64,000 nt of DNA, taken from Alloalcanivorax marinus (lineage in GTDB: Bacteria > Pseudomonadota > Gammaproteobacteria > Pseudomonadales > Alcanivoracaceae). The first letter of the stretch is position 1, and every line of letters starts with the position of its first letter. Position numbers and translations under genes: made by a program. Location of the stretch: the NCBI RefSeq assembly GCF_016785095.1, contig NZ_JAEKJB010000001.1, positions 186,001 to 250,000 of the forward strand. Direction: 5' to 3'. The notes below the pieces were generated by a model, which had not been told where the DNA came from, searched no databases, and saw nothing but the letters and a program-made list of their open reading frames with translations. Shown here in pieces: positions 21,983 through 48,950 of the stretch.

Positions 21983-22002
<20 letters not shown>
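20710..22002 (+). CDS. Dicarboxylate/amino acid:cation symporter (DAACS/SDF family)
   Basis: This 430-residue membrane protein carries the family's serine-rich re-entrant loop STSSSAATMPLSLKTAED, the NMDGTALY motif (GATVNMDGTALYQVV) and the C-terminal region GVDRLLDMSRTALNVTGD. It belongs with GltP/DctA/SstT-type sodium- or proton-coupled importers of dicarboxylates or acidic amino acids. The start is probably TTG at 20710, preceded at 5 nt by GAGGAG. The 3' end overlaps the convergent sigma-54 activator gene by 20 nt. Confidence 0.9.
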
Positions 22003-23616
<1,614 letters not shown>

Positions 23617-23617
<1 letters not shown>

Positions 23618-24438
23618 CAGCCCTCCAGTTGCCAGTTGAAACGCCGCATCAACATCACGCAGACGCTGTCCAGGGCGTAGCCGATCACGCCGATCACCAG
23701 CACCACCGCGGTCAGCGCCGCGTAGTCCAGGGTGTCACGGGCGTCGTTGATGGCGTAGCCCAGGCCGCTGGTGACGCCCAGGTATTCCGCCGGCACCAGC
23801 ACCACCCAGGCCACGCCCACCGCCAGGCGGATACCGGCCATCATGTCCATCATCACCGCCGGCAGGATCACCCGGCGCAGCATCTGCAGGCTGTCGGCGC
23901 CCAGGTTGCGGGCCACCTTGAACCAGCCCGGGTCGATGCGCTTGACGCCGTGGGCGGTGGAAAACACGATCGGCCACAGCGCCGCCATCAGGATCAGGAA
24001 TACGATGGCGCCGTCCCAGCTGTCGAAGATCAGCACCGCCAGGGGCATCCAGGCCAGCGGGCTGATCATGCGCAGAAACTGGAACGGCAGGTTGGCCATG
24101 CGCATGGCCAGGGAGAAATAGCCGATCAGGATGCCCAGGGGAATGCCAATCAGCGCGCCCCAGAACAACCCGGCGCCAATGCGATAAAGGCTGGCGCCGA
24201 TGGCGTCCCACAGCGCCGTCTCGCCGAGCATCCGCCACAGGGCGGCGAAGGTGGGCCCGGGGGCGAAGTTGGCGAACATCATCGTTTCCGGGTTGCTGGC
24301 CAGGTAGAGCCCACCCAGCCACCAGACGAACAGCATCACGGCGATGCCACCCAACGGCCAGGCCAGCGGCGCCACCCGGCGCCACAACGCCGGCCAGGCC
24401 GGTGCCGCGGGGCGGGCCCGGGAAGCGAGGGTATTCAT
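23617..24438 (-). CDS. ABC transporter permease (NrtB/CmpB/CynB-like)
   Basis: This 273-residue inner-membrane permease of the nitrate/sulfonate/taurine family has several hydrophobic helices, first near PLGGIAVMLFVWWLGGLYLA. The EAA-like coupling loop KVARNLGADSLQMLRRVILPAVMMDMMAGIRLAVG docks the ATPase. Its start overlaps the binding-protein stop by 4 nt. Together with the two neighbouring genes it forms a complete importer. The linked cyanase favours cyanate or a cyanate precursor as substrate over nitrate. Confidence 0.9.
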
Positions 24439-25682
24439 ACGCGGATCACCTCTTCCCGGACAAAGGGGTCGTCGTCGTCCTTCTTGCCGGCGGGGAAGGC
24501 GATCAGCGACTTGCGCACGAAACGGTCATCGACCAGATCGCCGGCCACGAACTCCGGGTCCAGGGACTGCAGAAAACCGGTGTCGCCGCTGACCAGGGTG
24601 TCTTTCATCTGCTCGACGATGAAGCGGGTGGCGGACGGGTACGGCCAGGAGTGGAAATCCACCCGGCCAGTGTGCCATTCCGGGTGGCGGATGGCGTCCG
24701 GGTGCTCATAGTCAGCCGGGTTGTAGTGGGTCATGGCGCGCTCCACCACGTTGGCCGGCATCGGCAGGTAACCCTCGCCATCCCGGGACAACAGCCGGGC
24801 CACCTCGGCCTTGTTTTGCTGGGCGTCGTTCTGGGCGCGCACCAGGGCGTTCATCACCTTCTGGGTCCACACCGGCTTGGCGTTGACCTGGTTCTCGTTC
24901 ATGCACACCACGCAACAGGGGTGGTTCTTCCACATGTCACCGGTGAAGCGCAGCACCTTGCCGCCGGCCAGCAGTTCGCCGGCGGCGTTGAAGGGCTCGG
25001 CGACGATGTAGCCGTCGATCTTGCGCGCCGCCAGGGCGGCGGGCATGTCCGGCGGCGGCATGATCTGCAGGTTCACTTCCTTGGGCCCGAGCGGCTCGCC
25101 CTGCCCCTTGATCACCGGGGTCAGGCCGGCCTGGCGCAGGCCCATCTGCAGCACCACATTGTGCATGGAGTACCAGTACGGCACGGCGATCTGGGTGCCG
25201 CCCAGGTCGGCGAACTCCTCGGCGTCGGTATGGCGGCCCACCACGATGGCGGAACCGTTCACATGGGCCCAGGACATCACCTTGACCGGGAAATCGTTGC
25301 TGTAACGCATCCAGATCGGGATCGGCTTGAGGAAATGCACCAGGTTGAACTTGCCACTGGCGAAGCCTTCCACCAACGGCGACCAGCCGCGAATCAGGGT
25401 GGGCCGTTCCGCCTTCACGCCCTCTTCCTCGAAATAGCCGCGGGCATGGGCCACCAGCAGCACCGCCGCGTCGACGATGGGGATATAGCCGATGCGCAGC
25501 ACCGGGTCCTGTTCCTCGGCGAACGCCTGCCGGCTCAGCCCCAGGCCACCGGCGGTGAACATGCCGGCACTGGTGGCGGCGACGATGTCGCGCATGAAAT
25601 CACGCCGGCTCAGCCCGGTGTCGCAGGACTCGCAGGTGGGCAGGACCTGATCGTCGTCGTGGTGGTGGGATGAATCACTCAT
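24435..25682 (-). CDS. ABC transporter substrate-binding protein, Tat-exported (NrtA/CmpA/CynA-like)
   Basis: This 415-residue protein starts with an unusual polar stretch rich in His, Asp and Cys (SSHHHDDDQVLPTCESC), then a twin-arginine signal LSRRDFMRDIVAATSAG. The mature part begins near DPVLRIGYIPIVDAAVLLVAHA and shows the NMT1/SsuA-like fold with GWSPLVEGFASGKFNLVHF and YIVAEPFNAAGELLAGG, as in NrtA/CmpA. GAGGAG precedes the ATG at 25682; an upstream ATG inside the ATPase gene is less likely. Tat export is known for cyanobacterial NrtA-type proteins. Confidence 0.9.
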   Translation of the reverse strand: MSDSSHHHDDDQVLPTCESCDTGLSRRDFMRDIVAATSAGMFTAGGLGLSRQAFAEEQDPVLRIGYIPIVDAAVLLVAHARGYFEEEGVKAERPTLIRGWSPLVEGFASGKFNLVHFLKPIPIWMRYSNDFPVKVMSWAHVNGSAIVVGRHTDAEEFADLGGTQIAVPYWYSMHNVVLQMGLRQAGLTPVIKGQGEPLGPKEVNLQIMPPPDMPAALAARKIDGYIVAEPFNAAGELLAGGKVLRFTGDMWKNHPCCVVCMNENQVNAKPVWTQKVMNALVRAQNDAQQNKAEVARLLSRDGEGYLPMPANVVERAMTHYNPADYEHPDAIRHPEWHTGRVDFHSWPYPSATRFIVEQMKDTLVSGDTGFLQSLDPEFVAGDLVDDRFVRKSLIAFPAGKKDDDDPFVREEVIRV

Positions 25683-25710
25683 GAATCGCTCTCCTCGGGA
25701 TTGAAGGCGG

Positions 25711-26520
25711 TCAGCCGTTGCTGACGCGACGCAAACGGCCGCCATCGCGGTCCTTTTCCGGCAGCGGCGTGACGCTGTCGGTTTGCTGGAACAGGTCCAT
25801 CAACGCCCGCCGGCGCTGCTGGAATTCATTGGAGGCCGGGTCCCGGGGCCAGGGCAGCCCCACCTCCAGGCGGCTTTCGATGCGGCCCGGGTTCTGGGCC
25901 ATGATCAGCACCCGGTCGGCCATCAGGATGGCTTCGTCGATGTCGTGGGTAACGGTGACCAGGGTGATGCCCAGCTCGCCGCAGATGCCCGCCACTTCCT
26001 GCTGAAGACTGGCGCGGGTAAAGGCATCCAGCGCGGAAAACGGTTCATCAAGGAGCAGCACGTCCGGGCGCGTGGCCAGGGACCGGGCCAGGGCCACCCG
26101 TTGTTGCTGGCCACCGGACAGGCTCTGCACATTGACCCGGCTCTTGTCGGCCAGGCCCACCATCTCCAGCAACTGGTCCACCCGTTCGGCGATGTCCGCC
26201 TTGGAGGCGCCCGCGAACAGCAGGCCCAGGCCGACGTTGTCGCGCACATTCATCCACGGATACAGGGAGGGTTTCTGGAACATCATGTTCCACTTGGCGG
26301 AAGGCCGGGTGATCTGCCGGCCGCCGATCTTGACGCAACCGTCGGACGGCATCAGCAATCCGGCGATCATGTGCAGCAGGGTGGACTTGCCACACCCGCT
26401 GCGTCCGATCAGCACCACCCGTTCACCGCTTTTGATCTGGTCGTCAATGTCCTCGAGGACGGTGGCCGCCCCGGGTTTATAGCGGTGACTGATGGCGTTG
26501 AGACTAATGGTGGCTCCCAT
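25711..26520 (-). CDS. ABC transporter ATP-binding protein (NrtD/CynD-like)
   Basis: This 269-residue ATPase has Walker A GRSGCGKSTLLHMIAG, Q-loop MMFQKPSLYPWMNV, signature LSGGQQQRVAL and Walker B VLLLDEPFSALD, as in the nitrate/sulfonate/taurine importer group. It is the first gene of the leftward arm. GGAG stands 8 nt before the ATG, and a -24/-12 promoter lies about 52 nt upstream. It ends 28 nt before the binding-protein start. Confidence 0.92.
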   Translation of the reverse strand: MGATISLNAISHRYKPGAATVLEDIDDQIKSGERVVLIGRSGCGKSTLLHMIAGLLMPSDGCVKIGGRQITRPSAKWNMMFQKPSLYPWMNVRDNVGLGLLFAGASKADIAERVDQLLEMVGLADKSRVNVQSLSGGQQQRVALARSLATRPDVLLLDEPFSALDAFTRASLQQEVAGICGELGITLVTVTHDIDEAILMADRVLIMAQNPGRIESRLEVGLPWPRDPASNEFQQRRRALMDLFQQTDSVTPLPEKDRDGGRLRRVSNG

Positions 26521-26571
26521 CTGCGTACTCCGGTTTGCAACGGACCCCTTAACGGGTCGACGCAGTGTGAA

Positions 26572-26588
26572 GAGCAGGTTCCATGCCA
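26572..26588 (-). promoter_or_regulatory. Sigma-54 promoter for the leftward transporter operon
   Basis: On the minus strand the sequence is TGGCATGGAACCTGCTC, with GG and GC exactly 10 nt apart (-24/-12). It departs from TGGCACG-N4-TTGC at two conserved positions. The predicted start is near 26562, giving a 42-nt leader to the ATPase ATG at 26520. Confidence 0.65.
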
Positions 26589-26738
26589 GCTCACCGGGCG
26601 GGACGGTGGCGGGCCATCGACCGGACCGGCCCCCAGGCCCGAAAACGCCTTGATAACAGGCACTTGGCGCGGCTCTCGCGGCGGCACGCCGGCGCCGAAG
26701 CCGTGCAGAGGCCGGGGCCGGGGCGGCCCGCCAGGAAC

Positions 26739-26757
26739 GACAAAGTCGGACATTGTC
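26739..26757. promoter_or_regulatory. Enhancer-site candidate 1 (GACA-N11-TGTC)
   Basis: GACAAAGTCGGACATTGTC is a near-perfect 19-bp palindrome (8 of 9 pairs). Its centre (26748) is about 186 nt from the predicted leftward start. It shares the 10-mer CGGACATTGT with site 2. It is proposed to bind the Fis-type activator encoded at 21983-23617. Confidence 0.6.
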
Positions 26758-26850
26758 GGCTTTGTTGGTCTTTGTCGCCGCCCAAACAGCCCGCTAACGG
26801 GGCACCGAAGCGCTGCGACGGCAACCGGACAATGATCGGCAACGAAACCG

Positions 26851-26869
26851 GACATTGTTTCTGTTTGTC
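26851..26869. promoter_or_regulatory. Enhancer-site candidate 2 (GACA-N11-TGTC)
   Basis: GACATTGTTTCTGTTTGTC keeps the outer GACA/TGTC arms at the same spacing as site 1, but the inner pairs do not match. Its centre (26860) is about 184 nt from the predicted rightward start. A reversed-looking CGGACAATG at 26826-26834 lies close by. The rest of the 583-nt gap 26521-27103 shows no gene I can support. Confidence 0.5.
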
Positions 26870-27017
26870 GCGCTTCGTCCCGCCCCACGGGAATGCCGAG
26901 AGTCCCGTGATTCCGGCGCCCGGCGCCCCCGGCGTTCCGTTTCATCGCCGCCAACGGCTTGTTTTCCCTGCCTTTTCCCCTCCCTGCCCCGGGCCGGGCG
27001 TGGCGCGACAGCGCTTC

Positions 27018-27033
27018 TGGCACAGCGCTTGCG
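27018..27033 (+). promoter_or_regulatory. Sigma-54 promoter for the OsmC-cyanase operon
   Basis: TGGCACAGCGCTTGCG fits the -24/-12 consensus very closely, with GG at 27019-27020 and GC at 27031-27032, exactly 10 nt between them. The predicted start is near 27044, about 60 nt before the TTG start of the first gene. Confidence 0.8.
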
Positions 27034-27103
27034 ATAGGGCCCTTCGTGATGGCGGACCGCGCCGGTTCCGCCCCGTTACAACGACCCATGAAGGAGATGT
27101 CCC

Positions 27104-27652
27104 TTGAGCACGCAAACCGCCACTACCGTCAGCACCTACCTGCGCCCGATCGACCGCGACGGCCTTGAGGGCTTCGCCGAAAAAGGCCGCGCCAACCCGG
27201 AAAACCGGGGCACCAACAAGGTCCACACGATCTGTGAGGGCCAGTACCGCACGCTCAGCTACGTGGGCGACCATGAGCCGGTGGTGGTGGACGAGCCGCT
27301 GCATCTGTTCGGCCAGAACACCGCGCCGGCCCCCGGTGAAATCGTGTTGTCCGCCCTGGGCGGTTGTCTGGCCGTGGGCATCACCGCGGTGGCCACCTGG
27401 AAGAAGGTGAAACTGTCCCGCCTGGAACTGTTCCTTGAAGGCGACATTGGCAACACCGCCGCCTGGGGCGCCGGTGGCGCCCACCGCATCCCCTCGCAAA
27501 TGGGGTTCCAGGAAATCCGCGTGCGCGTGGTGGTGGAAGGCGACGCCAGCCGCGAAGAGCTGGACGAGATCGTCCAGCAGGCCAACTACTACTCCCCGGT
27601 GGCCAACACCATGCGCAACCCGATCGCCTTCGACATCGCCCTGGCCGAGTAA
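27104..27652 (+). CDS. OsmC family protein, first gene of the cyanase operon
   Basis: This 182-residue OsmC/Ohr-fold protein starts at a TTG with AAGGAG 7 nt upstream. The fold shows in APGEIVLSALGGCLAVGITA (Cys88) and the ending YYSPVANTMRNPIAFDIAL. OsmC peroxidases use two cysteines; here the second position reads Ser164 (SPVANT where others have CPV), so classical thiol-peroxidase chemistry is doubtful. Its place at the head of a sigma-54 operon with two flavin/iron redox proteins suggests a redox or sulfur/cyano-group role, which is inference. Confidence 0.85.
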   Translation: MSTQTATTVSTYLRPIDRDGLEGFAEKGRANPENRGTNKVHTICEGQYRTLSYVGDHEPVVVDEPLHLFGQNTAPAPGEIVLSALGGCLAVGITAVATWKKVKLSRLELFLEGDIGNTAAWGAGGAHRIPSQMGFQEIRVRVVVEGDASREELDEIVQQANYYSPVANTMRNPIAFDIALAE

Positions 27653-27709
27653 CCGGCCCGATCCACACACAGCGGCTCCGGCCTCGTGCCGGCGCCCCGG
27701 GAGGAGCCC

Positions 27710-28861
27710 ATGAACAGCGCCCAACCCCTTGATGTCACGCCGCCGGACAGCGACGCCGCCCTGCTTGAGCGGGTCGAGGAGATCGCCGCCGGCCCGCTCG
27801 CCGCCCTCGCCTACCGCATTGACCAGGAAGGCCATTACCCCCTGGAGATCATCCGGGCCCTGGGCGAGGCCGGCGCCCTCGATCCGCACCTGGCGGATCG
27901 CGGTGGCCGCTTCGATCTGGCCATCGCCGCCATGCAGCGGGTCAGCCGCCATTGCGGCACCACCGGCTTTTTGATGTGGACCCACCAGGTGTGCGCCCTG
28001 TACATGGCGGAATCCGGTAACCCGGCCCTGACCGGCGAGCGTCTGGAAGCCCACCGGCGCGGCGAACGCTTCGGCGGCACCGCCCTGTCCAACCCCATGA
28101 AGGCGCTCTCCGGCATTGAACGGATGGCCCTGCGCGCCCGGCCCGACGGCCAGGGCGGCTACCGGGTCAGCGGCGTACTGCCCTGGGTGAGCCATATCCA
28201 GAAAGGCCAGTACTGCGGCGCCCTGGCCCGGGTCCACGACGACCAGGGCGGCGACCAAGGCGAAATCATGTTCATGCTGGACTGCGACGACGACGTGGAG
28301 CTGCGCCCCTGCCCGGCCTTCGCCGGCATGGAAGGCAGCAGCACCTGGGGCATCCGCCTGGAGGATTACCCGGTGGGCGCGGAGCGGCTGATCGCCGACC
28401 CGGCGCAGCCGTTCGTGGCGCGCATCCGCGCCGGCTTCATCCTGCTGCAGGCGGGCATGGCCCTGGGCGTGGCCCAGGGCAGCCTGGATTCGATCCTGGA
28501 AGTGGAAGGCCAGCTCGGCCACGTCAACCAGTTCCTGGAACAGCGCCCGGAAGCACTGCGCGCGGAAATGGAGGATCTGGAAGCCCGCGCCGTGCGTCTG
28601 GCCGCCACCCCCTACGACACCAGCCGCGATTACCTGCTGGACGTGCTCGACCTGCGCACCCAGGGCGCCGAGTTCGCCCTGCGCGCCAGCCAGTCCGCCA
28701 TGCTGCACCAGGGCGCCCGGGGCTACGCCCTGTCCGCCGCCGCCCAGCGGCGCCTGCGCGAGGCCCAGTTCGTGGCCATCGTCACCCCGGCGATCAAGCA
28801 CCTGCGCTGGGAAATGGACCGGCTGTGCCGGGAGGACTGGCCCGAGGAGGCGGCATCATGA
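27710..28861 (+). CDS. Acyl-CoA dehydrogenase-like flavoprotein
   Basis: This 383-residue protein has the acyl-CoA dehydrogenase layout: an all-alpha N-terminal domain ([17 protein letters not shown]), a beta domain ([19 protein letters not shown] ... [19 protein letters not shown]) and a C-terminal helical domain. It resembles the DszC/SfnC-like monooxygenase or atypical dehydrogenase branch more than fatty-acid enzymes. I cannot point to a catalytic Glu with certainty. GGGAGGAG precedes the ATG. It overlaps the rubredoxin-reductase fusion by 4 nt, so the two probably work as a redox pair. Confidence 0.82.
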
Positions 28862-30204
28862 GCGCATCGCAACGCCCCTGGCGCCAATACATCTGCCTGG
28901 CCTGCGGCCTGATCTACGACGAGGAGCAGGGCGACCCGGACGGCGGCCTGCCACCGGGCACCCGCTTCGAGGACATCCCCGACGACTGGGAATGCCCGCT
29001 GTGCGGCGTCGGTAAAAGCGACTTCGAGCTTTACGAACCGCCCGCCGCCGCGATCAATCCGCCGCAGGCGCCGGCGGCGCGGCCGGTGGACGACAGCATC
29101 GTGGTGGTGGGCGCCGGCATCGCCGGCTGGAGCCAGGTCGAAGCGCTGCGCGCCCTGGACCGGGACGTACCCATCACCCTGGTCACCGCCTGCCAGGGCG
29201 ACGTCTACCACAAGCCGGAGCTGTCGGTGGCCCTGAGCCGGGGTCTGGACGCTCCGGCCCTGGCCCGGGAAAGCGGCGCCGACGCCGCCCGCCGACTGGG
29301 CGTTACCCTGCTCGCCAATACCTTCGCGGTGGGGCTGTCACCGGCGCTCAAGCAGCTGCGCACCACCCGCGGCACTCTCACCTACCGGGCTCTGGTGCTG
29401 GCCCACGGCGCCCGCCCGGCGCTGCCGCCGGTGCTGCCGGAGACCCTGTGCTGGCGCATCAACCACCTGCATGGCTGGGCCGGCCTGCAAACCGCCCTGG
29501 CCGGCGGTGCCCGGCGGGTGGCGGTGGTCGGCGCCGGCATGATCGGCTGTGAACTGGCCGAGGACCTGGCCCACGCCGGCCATGCCGTGACCCTGATCGA
29601 CCAGCAGCAAGGCCCGCTGGCCAATCTGCTGCCGGCCCCGGCGGTGCGACGCCTGACCCGCCACCTGGCGGACCTGGGCGTGACCTTCCTGGGCGGCACC
29701 CGGGTAGCCGGCGTGCGCGCCGCCGACGGCGGTCGTGACCTCACCCTGGAAGACGGCCACCGACTGCACGTCGATCAAGTGGTGGCGGCCACCGGCCTGG
29801 TCACCGAGCCACGCCTGGCGCGCCAGGCCGGGCTCGCTTTCGACCGGGGCATCGTGGTGGATGGGGACACCCTGGCCACCAGCCAGCCGGGCATCCATGC
29901 CCTCGGCGACTGCATCAGCATCGACGGCGCGCCGTGCCGTTTCATCGAGCCGATCCCCCGGCAGGCGGAGGCCATTGCCCACCATCTGCTGGATCTTCCC
30001 CACCCGGGCTATGGCCACCGGCCGCCGGTGGTGCGCCTCAAGACCCGGCGCCTGCCCATCGTGCTGCGCGGCGCTCCCAGCGCCGACCTGGCCTGGGAGG
30101 TAGAACACGACGACGACGATTACCTGGCCATGCGTCAATGCCGCGACGGCGAGGTCACCGCCAGCCTGACGGTGGGCCGCGCCCCACGGCGGGACGCCGC
30201 CTGA
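28858..30204 (+). CDS. Rubredoxin-FAD/NAD(P)H oxidoreductase fusion
   Basis: This 448-residue protein joins an N-terminal rubredoxin (residues about 8-55; iron ligands Cys13, Cys16, Cys46, Cys49 in CLACG and CPLCG) to a pyridine-nucleotide-disulfide-type reductase. The reductase has FAD motif [21 protein letters not shown](P)H motif [17 protein letters not shown] and the late FAD motif [12 protein letters not shown]. It is a self-contained NAD(P)H-to-rubredoxin chain like a fused AlkT/RubA. The likely electron acceptor is the flavoprotein encoded just upstream; with O2 this could be an oxygenase system. Confidence 0.9.
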
Positions 30205-30255
30205 TTTTTCATCCCACACTCCCCTCTTTTTCCCACACTCCATGGAGACGCAACC

Positions 30256-30705
30256 ATGATCAGTAACCGCACTCAAGTCACCGAAATGATCCGCGCCGCC
30301 AAGGTCGCCAAGGGCCTTACCTGGAAAGCGGTGGCCGACGCCGTCGGCAACAGCAAGGAATGGACCACCGCCGCCTGCCTCGGCCAGATGGCCATGAACA
30401 AAGAGCAGGCCGCCGTCGTCGGCGAGCTGTTCGGCCTGTCCGACGAAGCCGTGGCCTGGCTGCAGATCGTTCCCTACAAGGGCGGCGAATCCGACACCCA
30501 GCACAAGGACCCGCTGATCTACCGCCTCTACGAAGCAGTGCACGTCTACGGCGGCGCCATGAAGGAACTGATCCACGAGGAATTCGGCGACGGCATCATG
30601 AGCGCCATCGATTTCGATCTGGACATCCAGCGCCAGGAAGATCCCAAAGGCGATCGCGTGCGCGTGCTGATGACCGGCAAGTTCCTGCCCTACAAGGTGT
30701 ACTGA
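30256..30705 (+). CDS. cynS: Cyanase (cyanate hydratase)
   Basis: This 149-residue protein matches cyanase along its length. An N-terminal helical domain (KGLTWKAVADAVGNSKEWTTAACLGQM) is followed by the catalytic domain with Arg90 and Glu93 (YRLYEAVHVYG) and Ser116 (FGDGIMSAIDFDLD), equal to E. coli Arg96, Glu99 and Ser122. It converts cyanate and bicarbonate to ammonia and CO2. It is the last gene of the sigma-54 operon, 51 nt after the rubredoxin fusion, and is followed by a REP hairpin that may end the transcript. Confidence 0.97.
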   Translation: MISNRTQVTEMIRAAKVAKGLTWKAVADAVGNSKEWTTAACLGQMAMNKEQAAVVGELFGLSDEAVAWLQIVPYKGGESDTQHKDPLIYRLYEAVHVYGGAMKELIHEEFGDGIMSAIDFDLDIQRQEDPKGDRVRVLMTGKFLPYKVY

Positions 30706-31371: not shown

Positions 31372-31452
31372 AGGCAATATTCTATAAAGCCGCCTTACCG
31401 AGCGCCCCCGGCGTCGGCTTTTTTGGTTTGCCTTTTCAGAAGGATTTGTATC

Positions 31453-33480
31453 GTGACTTACCCCTCCCACGCCGTTACCGCCCTGGCTCTGGGCGTCGCC
31501 CTGGCCACCCAGACCGCCCACGCGGCCCAGCCCGACAACCATGTTCTCGAAGCGGTCACCGTGGTGTCCGCCGCCGGTTTCGAACAGCACATCGCCGACG
31601 CGCCGGCGTCGATTTCCGTGATCGACCGGGAACAGCTGGAAACCCATGGTTACCAGGACGTTACCGACGCCCTCAAGGACATTCCCGGCGTCACCATCAC
31701 CGGCGGCGGCTCCCGCCAGGACATCAGCCTGCGTGGCATGTCCGCCAAGTACACCATGATCCTGGTGGACGGGCGCCGCCTGTCCGGCCGCGAAGCCACC
31801 GCCAACGGTAACGACGGCGGCCTGGAGCAGAATTACCTGCCACCGTTGCGCGCCATTGAACGCATCGAGGTGATTCGCGGCCCGATGTCATCACTGTACG
31901 GTTCCGAGGCCATGGGCGGGGTCATCAATATCATCACCCGCAAGGTACAGAAACAATGGCTGGGTTCCTTCGGCAGCGAAGTCACCCTGCAGGACAACAG
32001 CGAATCCGGCGACGCCCGCCAGTCGGATCTGTACCTGGCCGGCCCGTTGCTCGAGGACAAACTGGGTCTGCAGGTCAACGGCCAGGTCCGCCATCGCGAG
32101 GAAGACGACATTCTCGAGGGCTTCGAGGAGCAGAAGGTACGCGGCGGCGGCGCCAAACTGGTGTTCACGCCGGATCACCGCAACGATCTGGCGGTGTCCT
32201 ACGACGAGGTGCGCCAGGAGCGTAACGGCTCACCGGGCAAATACTACGAGCCCGGCGCGGAAGCCTCGCAACGGCGCTTCAACAAGGAAACCGCCGCCCT
32301 CACCCACGAAGGCCGCTTCGGCGCCTGGAGCACCGAGTCCTATGTACAGAACGAAAAAACCGAGAACCCGGATCGGGAAGGCGAATTGCGCGACGGCATC
32401 ACCCTGGAAACCCTGATCGCCAATACCCAGGCCACCTACTTCGGCGACCGCCACATCGTTACTTTCGGCGCCCAGTACAAGGACGAGGACCTCACCGACT
32501 ACGCCACCAACCGTTTGCCCACCAGCGACGCCACGGAAATCAGTCGCTGGCAGTACGCGGTATTCCTGGAGGACGAATGGCGGCTGACCCGCACGCTGTC
32601 GCTCACCGGCGGCCTGCGCTTCAACAAGGACGAGAACTTCGGCAACCATGTGTCGCCCCGACTCTATGCCGTGCACCACCTGACCCCGGCGCTCACCCTC
32701 AAGGGCGGTGTATCCACCGGTTACCGGCAGCCGTCGCTGCGCGAAGCCGCCGACGACTGGGGCGGCGTCACCGGCGGCCCCTGGTCCGCCGCCGGCCAGC
32801 CCCGCGCCATCATGAAGGGCAACCCGGATCTGGACCCGGAAACCAGCATCAACTACGAAGCCGGCTTCGCCCTGGACCTGCCCACCGGCATCGCCACCAG
32901 CGTCATGCTGTTCCAGACCGACTTCAAGGATAAGATCACCGAATACCGGGAGTGTGAATCCGATCCGTCCTCGGACCGGAACGACCCTTCCACCTGGGAT
33001 TGCAGCGATTCCGGCGAGGCCTATTACTTCATCAGCAACCGCATGAACGTGGACGAGGCGCGCATGCAGGGCGTGGAGGCCACCCTGGCCTGGCGGCTGG
33101 CCACCGATCTGCGCTTCAACGCCAGCTACACCTACACCGATTCCGAACAGCGCACCGGTGAATTCAAGGGCGAGCCGCTCAACAAGATTCCCCGCCACAT
33201 GTTCAACGCCGGCCTGGAATGGCAAACCACCGACAAGCTGCAAAGCTGGGCCCGGGTCAATCATCGTGGCCGCACCTCGGACTATCAGTCCCGGGTCAGC
33301 ATGGCCGAAGGCACGCCGGGTTATTCGCTGGTGGACGCCGGCCTGAACTACCGCGCCAGCGAGCACCTGACCCTCAAGGCCGGGGTCTACAACCTCACCG
33401 ATCGCCAGGTCACCAACGAGGACTTCGAGATCATCCTCGACGGCCGCCGCTACAACGCCGGCCTGGTGGTGGATTTCTGA
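31453..33480 (+). CDS. TonB-dependent catecholate-type siderophore receptor (CirA/PfeA-like)
   Basis: This 675-residue protein has a signal peptide ending near TAHA, a TonB-box-like VLEAVTVVSA, a plug domain (ASISVIDREQLETHGYQDVTDALKDIPGVTI ... GPMSSLYGSEAMGGVINIIT) and a 22-strand barrel ending in the aromatic VVDF. It imports ferric siderophores, and the plug resembles CirA/FepA. The start is taken as GTG at 31453 with AGAAGGA upstream. It overlaps a periplasmic esterase gene by 1 nt (TGATG), the PfeA-PfeE arrangement, which suggests a catechol siderophore that is hydrolysed after uptake. Confidence 0.9.
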   Translation: MTYPSHAVTALALGVALATQTAHAAQPDNHVLEAVTVVSAAGFEQHIADAPASISVIDREQLETHGYQDVTDALKDIPGVTITGGGSRQDISLRGMSAKYTMILVDGRRLSGREATANGNDGGLEQNYLPPLRAIERIEVIRGPMSSLYGSEAMGGVINIITRKVQKQWLGSFGSEVTLQDNSESGDARQSDLYLAGPLLEDKLGLQVNGQVRHREEDDILEGFEEQKVRGGGAKLVFTPDHRNDLAVSYDEVRQERNGSPGKYYEPGAEASQRRFNKETAALTHEGRFGAWSTESYVQNEKTENPDREGELRDGITLETLIANTQATYFGDRHIVTFGAQYKDEDLTDYATNRLPTSDATEISRWQYAVFLEDEWRLTRTLSLTGGLRFNKDENFGNHVSPRLYAVHHLTPALTLKGGVSTGYRQPSLREAADDWGGVTGGPWSAAGQPRAIMKGNPDLDPETSINYEAGFALDLPTGIATSVMLFQTDFKDKITEYRECESDPSSDRNDPSTWDCSDSGEAYYFISNRMNVDEARMQGVEATLAWRLATDLRFNASYTYTDSEQRTGEFKGEPLNKIPRHMFNAGLEWQTTDKLQSWARVNHRGRTSDYQSRVSMAEGTPGYSLVDAGLNYRASEHLTLKAGVYNLTDRQVTNEDFEIILDGRRYNAGLVVDF

Positions 33481-46892: not shown

Positions 46893-48950
46893 ATGAAAGC
46901 ACCCCATCGCCGCGCCGGCGCCCTGTTGCTCCTGGCCCCGGCCGCCACCCTGCACGCCGCCGAACCGACCGGCGACGCCACCACCGACCACCTTCTGGCA
47001 CCGGTGGTGATTACCTCGGTGGCGCCGTCGTCCCCGCTCACCCTGGAAACCGACCCGGGCGAGCCACGCCAGCCGGTGCCGGCCAGCGACGCCGCCGACT
47101 ATCTGAAGACCATCCCCGGTTTCTCGGCGGTGCGCAGCGGTGGCAGCAACGGCGATCCGGTGCTGCGTGGCCAGTTCGGCTCGCGGCTTAACCTGCTGGT
47201 GGACGGCGGCGAGATGATCGGCGCCTGCCCCAACCGCATGGACGCGCCCAGCTCCTACATTGCCCCGGAAACCTACGACCGGCTGACCGTGATCAAGGGC
47301 CCGCAAAGCGTGCAGTGGGGGCCCACCGGCTCCGCCGGCACGGTGCTGTTCGAGCGTGAGCCGCTGTATTTCAGCACCGCCCACCAGTCACTCAACGCCG
47401 CCTTCCTGGCCGGTTCCCACGGTCGCCGGGACCAGGTGCTGGACGCCACCCTGGGCGACCGCCCCGGTTACCTGCGTTTCAGCGGCAACCACGGCGAAGC
47501 GGACGACTACCGGGATGGCCATGGCGAACGGGTGCCATCAAGCTGGGAGAAATGGAACGCCGATGTCAGCGCCGGCTGGACGCCCACCCCGGACGCCCTG
47601 ATCGAGCTGCGCGCCGGGCGCGGCGACGGCGAAGCCCGCTACGCCGGGCGCGGCATGGACGGCAGCCAGTTCGATCGGGAAAGCCTGGGCCTGCGCTGGC
47701 GCTTCGGCGCCCTCGGCGAGGTGCTGGAACGCATCGAGGGTCAGGTCTACTACAACTACGCCGACCATGTGATGGACAACTACAGCCTGCGCACGCCCTC
47801 CGGCACCGGCATGATGGCCGGTCCCATGGCCGCCAACGTGGACCGGCGCACCCTGGGCGCCCGGCTCAAGGGCACCTGGCTGTGGCAAGGTACCGAGCTG
47901 GTCGCCGGAGTGGACGCCCAGACCAGCACCCACCGGGAACGCAGCGCCATGGGCGTGGACGCCTACCACGCCGAGCCCTGGACCAAGGACGCCGAGTTCC
48001 AGCGCCATGGCGCCTTCGCCGAGTTGACCCGGCATCTGAACGGCCCGGCGCGACTGATCGCCGGCGCCCGCCTGGACCACCACACGGTGGAGGACCACCG
48101 CGCCACCCTGGGCGGCGGCATGGGCATGCCAATGGCCAACCCCACCGCCGGCGACGAACGCCGGGACACCCTGCCCTCCGGCTTCCTGCGCTACGAGCGC
48201 GACCTGCCGGCCCGGGGCGCCACCCTCTACGCCGGCCTGGGCCACGCCCAGCGCTTCCCGGACTACTGGGAGCTGTTCTCCCCGGACGCCGGCCCGGCGG
48301 CCAGCGCCAACGCTTTCGACGGCGTCGAGCCGGAGAAGACCACCCAGCTCGACCTGGGCGCCCAGTACCGGAGCGACGCCCTGGACGCCTGGGTGTCCGC
48401 CTATGTGGGGCGCATCGAGGACTACATTCTGTTCCGCTACCAGGACGGCATGATGGGCGCCACCAGTCAGGCGGACAATGTGGACGCGCGCATCATGGGT
48501 GGTGAGCTGGGCGCCACCTGGCGCTTCGCCGACCATTGGAGCGCCGACGCCAGCCTGGCCTATGCCCGTGGCGACAACCGGGACGACGGCGAACCGCTAC
48601 CGCAGATCCCGCCGCTGGAAAGCCGCCTGGGGCTGAACTACCAGCGTGGCGACTGGAGCGCCGCCGCCCTGGCCCGGCTGGTGGACGGCCAGCACCGCAT
48701 CGACGCCGGCAACGGCACCGTGGTGGGCCGGGACCTGGGCGACAGCGGCGGCTTCGCCACCCTGGCCCTGAACGGCGCCTGGCGCGTGAACCGTAGCCTG
48801 CGACTGAGCGCCGGCGTCGACAACCTGTTCGACCGCGCCTACGCCGAGCACCTGAACCTGGCCGGCAACGCCGGCTTCGGCTTCCCCGGTGACGAGCGCA
48901 TCAACGAACCGGGCCGCACCGTCTGGGCGCGGATGGATCTGACGTTCTAG
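46893..48950 (+). CDS. oprC: TonB-dependent copper receptor (OprC/NosA family)
   Basis: This 685-residue outer-membrane protein has a signal peptide ([15 protein letters not shown]), a plug with [20 protein letters not shown], then [21 protein letters not shown] and [12 protein letters not shown], the hallmark of the copper receptor family, and a barrel ending in ARMDLTF. Met-rich loops ([11 protein letters not shown] and [11 protein letters not shown]) fit copper binding. It probably takes up copper or its complexes. The stop shares CTAG with the stop of the convergent RND pump gene. Confidence 0.92.

Follow-up and report, generated by a model that had tools for sequence, protein, structure and literature searches.

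The gap at positions 26521-27103 of the window, which is the whole 64,000-nucleotide stretch of Alloalcanivorax marinus DNA that was analysed, separates the leftward from the rightward operon of a cyanase module and, judged from its sequence, is a real sigma-54 control region of an ordinary kind that has been conserved. Quite probably, it is a control region shared by two divergent sigma-54 operons, in which the adjacently encoded activator would bind GACA-W-TGTC units and drive both promoters. Support at the sequence level comes from the co-occurrence of operator, promoter, and activator gene across modules, with upstream activator sites that are both conserved and enriched.

The leftward operon (minus strand) consists of overlapping genes that code for the ATPase of an ABC transporter (25711-26520, the first gene), its NMT1-like substrate-binding protein (24435-25745), its permease (23617-24438), and, as the last gene, a sigma-54 activator (21983-23617). 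A domain search assigned GAF, sigma-54 AAA+, and Fis-type helix-turn-helix (HTH) domains to the latter, and the GAFTGA loop, which we take to be the sigma-54 activator loop motif, is visible in its sequence; the original prediction of an activator with a Fis-type HTH encoded in the leftward operon is thus borne out. The rightward operon (plus strand) opens with the gene for an OsmC-like protein with a TTG start (27104-27652), followed by those for an acyl-CoA-dehydrogenase-like (ACAD-like) flavoprotein (27686-28861), a rubredoxin domain fused to a pyridine-nucleotide reductase (28825-30204), and cyanase (30256-30705). Downstream of the cyanase gene, the window holds a gene for a TonB-dependent receptor (31423-33480); such a receptor also adjoins the module in L034 and L057 (80% identity) and may function in outer-membrane uptake for the module.

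Two sigma-54 (-24/-12) promoters, predicted from the sequence and from a whole-genome pattern search, point outward from the gap, specifically TGGCATGGAACCTGC at 26574-26588 on the minus strand (predicted start at approximately 26562) and TGGCACAGCGCTTGC at 27018-27032 on the plus strand (predicted start at approximately 27044). Both have the GG-N10-GC spacing that the -24/-12 element requires, in line with the earlier claim of two outward promoters with 10 nt between GG and GC; they are the same sites, although their ends, previously set at 26572-26588 and 27018-27033, have shifted slightly. By convention, transcription starts 12 nt beyond the C of the -12 GC, and the predicted starts were placed at this distance. 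The pattern TGGCAY-N5-YTGC has 61 matches on both strands of the genome, against 39 for a control pattern, and two of the 61 flank the operator sites and are oriented outward. No sigma-70-type site was found in 26400-27200, and an rpoN gene is present in the genome.

Between the promoters lie two 19-bp GACA-N11-TGTC sites (26739-26757 and 26851-26869), as originally described; the pattern occurs at 17 places in the 4,175,302 bases of the genome, compared with 13 for the reversed control pattern, and two of these 17 places fall in this gap, 112 bp apart, which exceeds chance. Each site is part of a larger cluster with no strand assigned. The left operator cluster (26739-26776), delimited from the sequence, consists of GACAAAGTC followed by two CTTTGT half-sites and includes the perfect unit GACATTGTC at 26749-26757. 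The right operator cluster (26828-26869), delimited from the sequence and its relatives and conserved within the genus, is composed of a degenerate third unit GACAATGAT at 26828-26836, GACATTGTT at 26851-26859, and TTTGTC at 26864-26869. The sole perfect unit of the window belongs to the left, less conserved cluster, and the right cluster is devoid of perfect units. These operator sites are probably read by the adjacently encoded activator.

Modules with the ACAD-like gene are found in Azoarcus, Marinobacter, Paraburkholderia, Burkholderia, Caballeronia, Acetobacter, and others, with plasmid-borne copies in Marinobacter, Caballeronia, and Acetobacter. A class-wide sample of 369 genomes contains 13 that have them, that of the window included, and they are also present in 12 of 399 genomes in the order of genome G199 and in 9 of 116 in the family of genome G743; the loci compared were the window (27104-30705), L031-L039, L052-L071, L111, L120, and L183-L201. 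The 9-bp palindrome GACA-W-TGTC was first spotted by eye in the osmC and transporter upstream regions of the training set. It occurs 27 times in 17 of 26 osmC-upstream regions, against a mean of 0.14 after shuffling, 11 times in 10 of 15 transporter-ATPase regions, 8 times in 5 of 12 cyanase regions, and never in 30 gaps before internal genes, counts that are not independent, as divergent regions were counted for both arms and many loci are close relatives. L071 was dropped from these counts, and loci lacking an osmC region of at least 100 bases (among them L055, L056, and L059) were left out of the osmC counts. The unit is often repeated approximately 10 bp apart, and in a comparison of 35 distinct units, the flanks show additional partial half-sites at a distance of roughly one helical turn.

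When 1344 spaced dyads were scored without bias over 34 regions, the top two ranks went, in this order, to ACA-N1-TGT (51 observed versus 2.9 expected) and GAC-N3-GTC (35 versus 1.8), followed in third place by the sigma-54 pair GCA-N7-TGC, with ACA-N11-TGT in ninth place (21 versus 2.8); the near-duplicates L036, L053, L057, and L195 and four activator-less loci were excluded from the scan, and other related rows (e.g., L065-L067, L196-L200) were kept. Moreover, in the regions scored after the motif had been fixed, GACAWTGTC is present in 7 of 16, compared with 80 of 3200 random 450-base stretches from the same loci; these 16 are out of 21, since L184, L186, L191, L192, and L193 have no scorable osmC region. 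Without L111 and L120, which had been fetched earlier, the unit is found in 6 of 14 regions, against approximately 2.5% of random stretches, and in 6 of 10 among the modules with an activator gene. The conserved operator unit, as the comparison of modules indicates, is the 9-bp GACA-W-TGTC. What persists of the recognition site proposed at the outset is a conserved palindromic operator, in which GACA-N11-TGTC gives way to GACA-W-TGTC units: the longer pattern occurs 9 times in only 6 of 26 osmC regions, all of them Alloalcanivorax-type or Marinobacter loci, and in 3 of the 16 later regions (L111, L120, and L196), and was rejected as the operator; it is a secondary spacing of the 9-bp unit.

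The operator and the promoter accompany the activator gene. With up to 2 mismatches allowed, a sigma-54 site is found in 33 of the osmC regions of 38 activator-bearing modules; a perfect unit is found in 24 of these regions, and ACAWTGT or the tandem form in 31. Four osmC regions with no activator gene in the fetched stretch have no sigma-54 site, unit, or tandem form; all four come from one genus and count as one comparison, and the absence of the gene refers to the fetched stretch. Seven of the 38 activator-bearing modules (L060, L197, L054, L061, L063, L070, and L201) lack ACAWTGT or the tandem form before osmC. The lack has an explanation in L060, whose osmC lies behind a rhodanese gene that itself has a perfect promoter and a unit in front of it, and L197 has only GACAAT/GACAAA half-sites before osmC, which leaves L054, L061, L063, L070, and L201 as exceptions. 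Regarding other elements, matches to the IHF consensus amount to 7 in 7 of 34 regions in one orientation (0.43 expected) and to 2 in the other (0.48 expected), an excess that includes the osmC-upstream regions of L034, L035, and L058; one match each is found in L034 and L057, and none in the window, L031, and L032, so that IHF has no part in the proposed mechanism.

It is unlikely, on balance, that a regulator other than the neighbouring activator (e.g., a distinct repressor or a general nitrogen regulator) binds the units and that the activator reads something else. In favour of this view, binding of the units by the activator is a prediction from sequence, and they do not look like the NifA site, TGT-N10-ACA, despite the activator's resemblance to NifA. 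The activator shares with NifA the GAF-AAA+-Fis HTH layout, nifA is the highest-scoring NCBIfam model for it (461.3 bits), and its best match in the PDB is a Nif-specific regulatory protein (9qq6). An identity as NifA itself was discarded, as the score does not reach the curated cut-off of 528.85 and TGT-N10-ACA is not enriched, with 3 observed versus 2.6 expected in 34 regions, i.e., background. Against a different reader of the units, their occurrence in distant modules follows that of the activator gene and of the sigma-54 promoters, and the pattern GCAC-N5-8-GTGC, typical of NtrC-like sites, has 0 occurrences versus 1.0 expected in the same number of regions. Moreover, a perfect sigma-54 site lies downstream of only one of the 20 units outside the window, as would be expected of a local regulator, and for this reason the activator looks dedicated to this locus.

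Specifically, GACAWTGTC is found at 21 places in the genome, approximately what composition alone would give by our own estimate, and 17 of the 20 sites outside the window are inside a frame that runs from stop to stop over more than 300 codons, which is weak evidence in a GC-rich genome. Five of the 20 have a GG-N10-GC element (up to 2 mismatches) no more than 400 nt away, and one such element is perfect (L156, contig C7, approximately 47645-47873), compared with approximately 0.1 perfect-type pairs of unit and sigma-54 site expected by our own estimate. At L156, a GACATTGTC unit is located approximately 205 nt upstream of the perfect sigma-54 site, and this site precedes a short ORF that looks exported by eye; it is a possible second target, with a single unit and close to chance. 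One further GACAWTGTC site is found together with GACA-N11-TGTC at the start of a gene that we read as rmf-like (L146).

Within the genus, the ACAD-like gene is present in 5 of 13 genomes, that of the window included (E up to 1e-60), namely in the window, L031 (an Alcanivorax MAG), L032 (A. mobilis), L034 (A. balearicus), and L057. The same divergent layout, both sigma-54 promoters, and the right-hand cluster are kept in 5/5 copies, of which L034 and L057 are nearly identical, and much of the remaining intergenic sequence has diverged. The left-hand cluster is found in 2/5, the window and L032, and is absent from L031, L034, and L057, so that the expected conservation of both sites in related intergenic regions holds for the right cluster and fails for the left one. 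From the core of the right cluster, the distance to the rightward start is 189, 176, 176, 175, and 175 nt in the window, L031, L032, L034, and L057, respectively, and that to the leftward start is 293, 234, 398, 198, and 198 nt. The conserved putative enhancer is the right-hand cluster, to which the left-hand cluster adds extra, lineage-variable sites.

The same copies bear on the near-equal spacing that had been singled out as a striking design for loop-forming enhancers. Recalculation reproduced the values, with the centres of the two sites 186 nt (left) and 184 nt (right) upstream of the predicted starts at 26562 and 27044, and this spacing speaks for a symmetric arrangement in which each site would serve its own promoter at a distance selected for matched loops. 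However, a mirror within 2 nt arises by chance in approximately 1.6% of cases for two randomly placed sites and in 4.5% for three; mirror spacing alone is therefore weak evidence of design. Moreover, the best-mirrored units differ by 2 nt in the window but by 35 nt in L031 and by 43 nt in both L034 and L057, and in L032, which has one unit only by the unit pattern, the N11 matches are 221 nt from the left start and 181 or 171 nt from the right one, with differences of 40 or 50 nt. Since relatives differ by 35-50 nt and three of the four, the nearest among them, lack the left cluster, a symmetric-loop design is not conserved, mirror spacing is ruled out as a conserved feature, and selection for matched loops appears very improbable. 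The mirror geometry belongs to the genome of the window and not to the system, and a neat spacing in a single genome calls for comparison with related genomes before it is taken as a sign of design. Least credible of all is a role of the left cluster in transcription termination or as a structured RNA element in place of an operator, as the one terminator-like stem in its favour (26738-26767) compares with an average of 0.9 such stems in shuffles, 26400-27200 has no Rfam match, and the same units recur before other modules.

In the regulatory circuit that we favour, the GAF-AAA+-Fis activator would bind the GACA-W-TGTC units, often with half-sites about one helical turn away, and loop the DNA to the sigma-54 RNA polymerase at both promoters. 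The leftward promoter would thereby drive the expression of the transporter and of the activator itself, and the rightward one that of the OsmC protein, the ACAD-like protein, the rubredoxin reductase, and cyanase. Physical binding, RpoN dependence, autoregulation, and looping are all steps that we infer from the arrangement of the elements. Self-regulation is plausible because the activator gene closes the leftward operon, and positive autoregulation would follow if the leftward promoter is the main one of the operon. Autoregulation is not a general feature, as units before separate activator genes are few (1 in 21 regions). From the gene content, our guess is that the GAF ligand could be a compound related to cyanate.

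The closest comparison is with the cynABDS system of Pseudomonas pseudoalcaligenes CECT5344, for which CynF is reported to be needed for cynABDS expression, with induction by cyanate, repression by ammonium, and predicted promoters of the sigma-54 type upstream of cynA and of the sigma-70 type upstream of cynF (PMC6627978). The present system would work in much the same way, and both systems have a Fis-type sigma-54 regulator beside an ABC transporter and cyanase, and a predicted sigma-54 promoter before the structural genes. In contrast, cynF is described there as divergent from cynABDS, with its own predicted sigma-70 promoter (PMC6627978), whereas here the activator gene is co-directional with the transporter genes, downstream of them, and last in the operon, and genes for the OsmC protein, the ACAD-like protein, and the rubredoxin reductase are added. 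The activators of the canonical-type clusters found by the analysis are more distant, with 37-43% identity to that of the window over part of the protein. In a survey guided by cyanase, 98 of 390 genomes have the enzyme, and 40 regions from 39 genomes were read. Units are present in four of them (L111, L138, L116, and L135), of which those in L116 and L135 are away from the upstream region of any module gene. No unit is found inside the canonical cynFABDS-like clusters of L110, L119, L123, L138, and L139; the unit of L138, from a genome of the same genus as that of L058, is located directly before a second activator, downstream of a transporter of the kind found in this module.

The presence of cyanase implies cyanate as a substrate or an intermediate of the module. 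Among the best-matching open-licence full-text literature, no description of the module or of its operator was found. A tentative idea, which we consider doubtful, is that the activator and GACA-W-TGTC define an undescribed regulon for an imported one-carbon compound of sulfur and nitrogen (e.g., thiocyanate) that is converted to cyanate and then handed to cyanase. In such a regulon, spread over proteobacteria and partly carried on plasmids, the ACAD-like flavoprotein, the OsmC protein, and the rubredoxin reductase would make cyanate, and cyanase would remove it. Apart from this idea, the operator, now better defined than first proposed, and the activator are a testable pair for an uncharacterised cyanase-linked module that ranges over Alloalcanivorax, Marinobacter, Burkholderiales, and others, with some copies on plasmids, and a reporter of the rightward promoter could be exploited to screen for the inducer and hence for the substrate of the module.

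Lastly, some neighbouring genes make a sulfur-containing nitrogen substrate plausible, as a lead only. Of 51 loci, 9 (L120, L196, L197, L199, L200, L060, L066, L067, and L056) have a gene for a two-domain rhodanese in the vicinity of the ACAD-like gene; in L120 it separates the activator gene from osmC, and in L060 it opens the osmC operon. TauE-type exporters are found near the module in 4 of 51 loci, and 7 of the 51 (L061, L062, L063, L064, L068, L070, and L071) have a DUF302 gene of approximately 130 codons as a neighbour of the ACAD-like gene.
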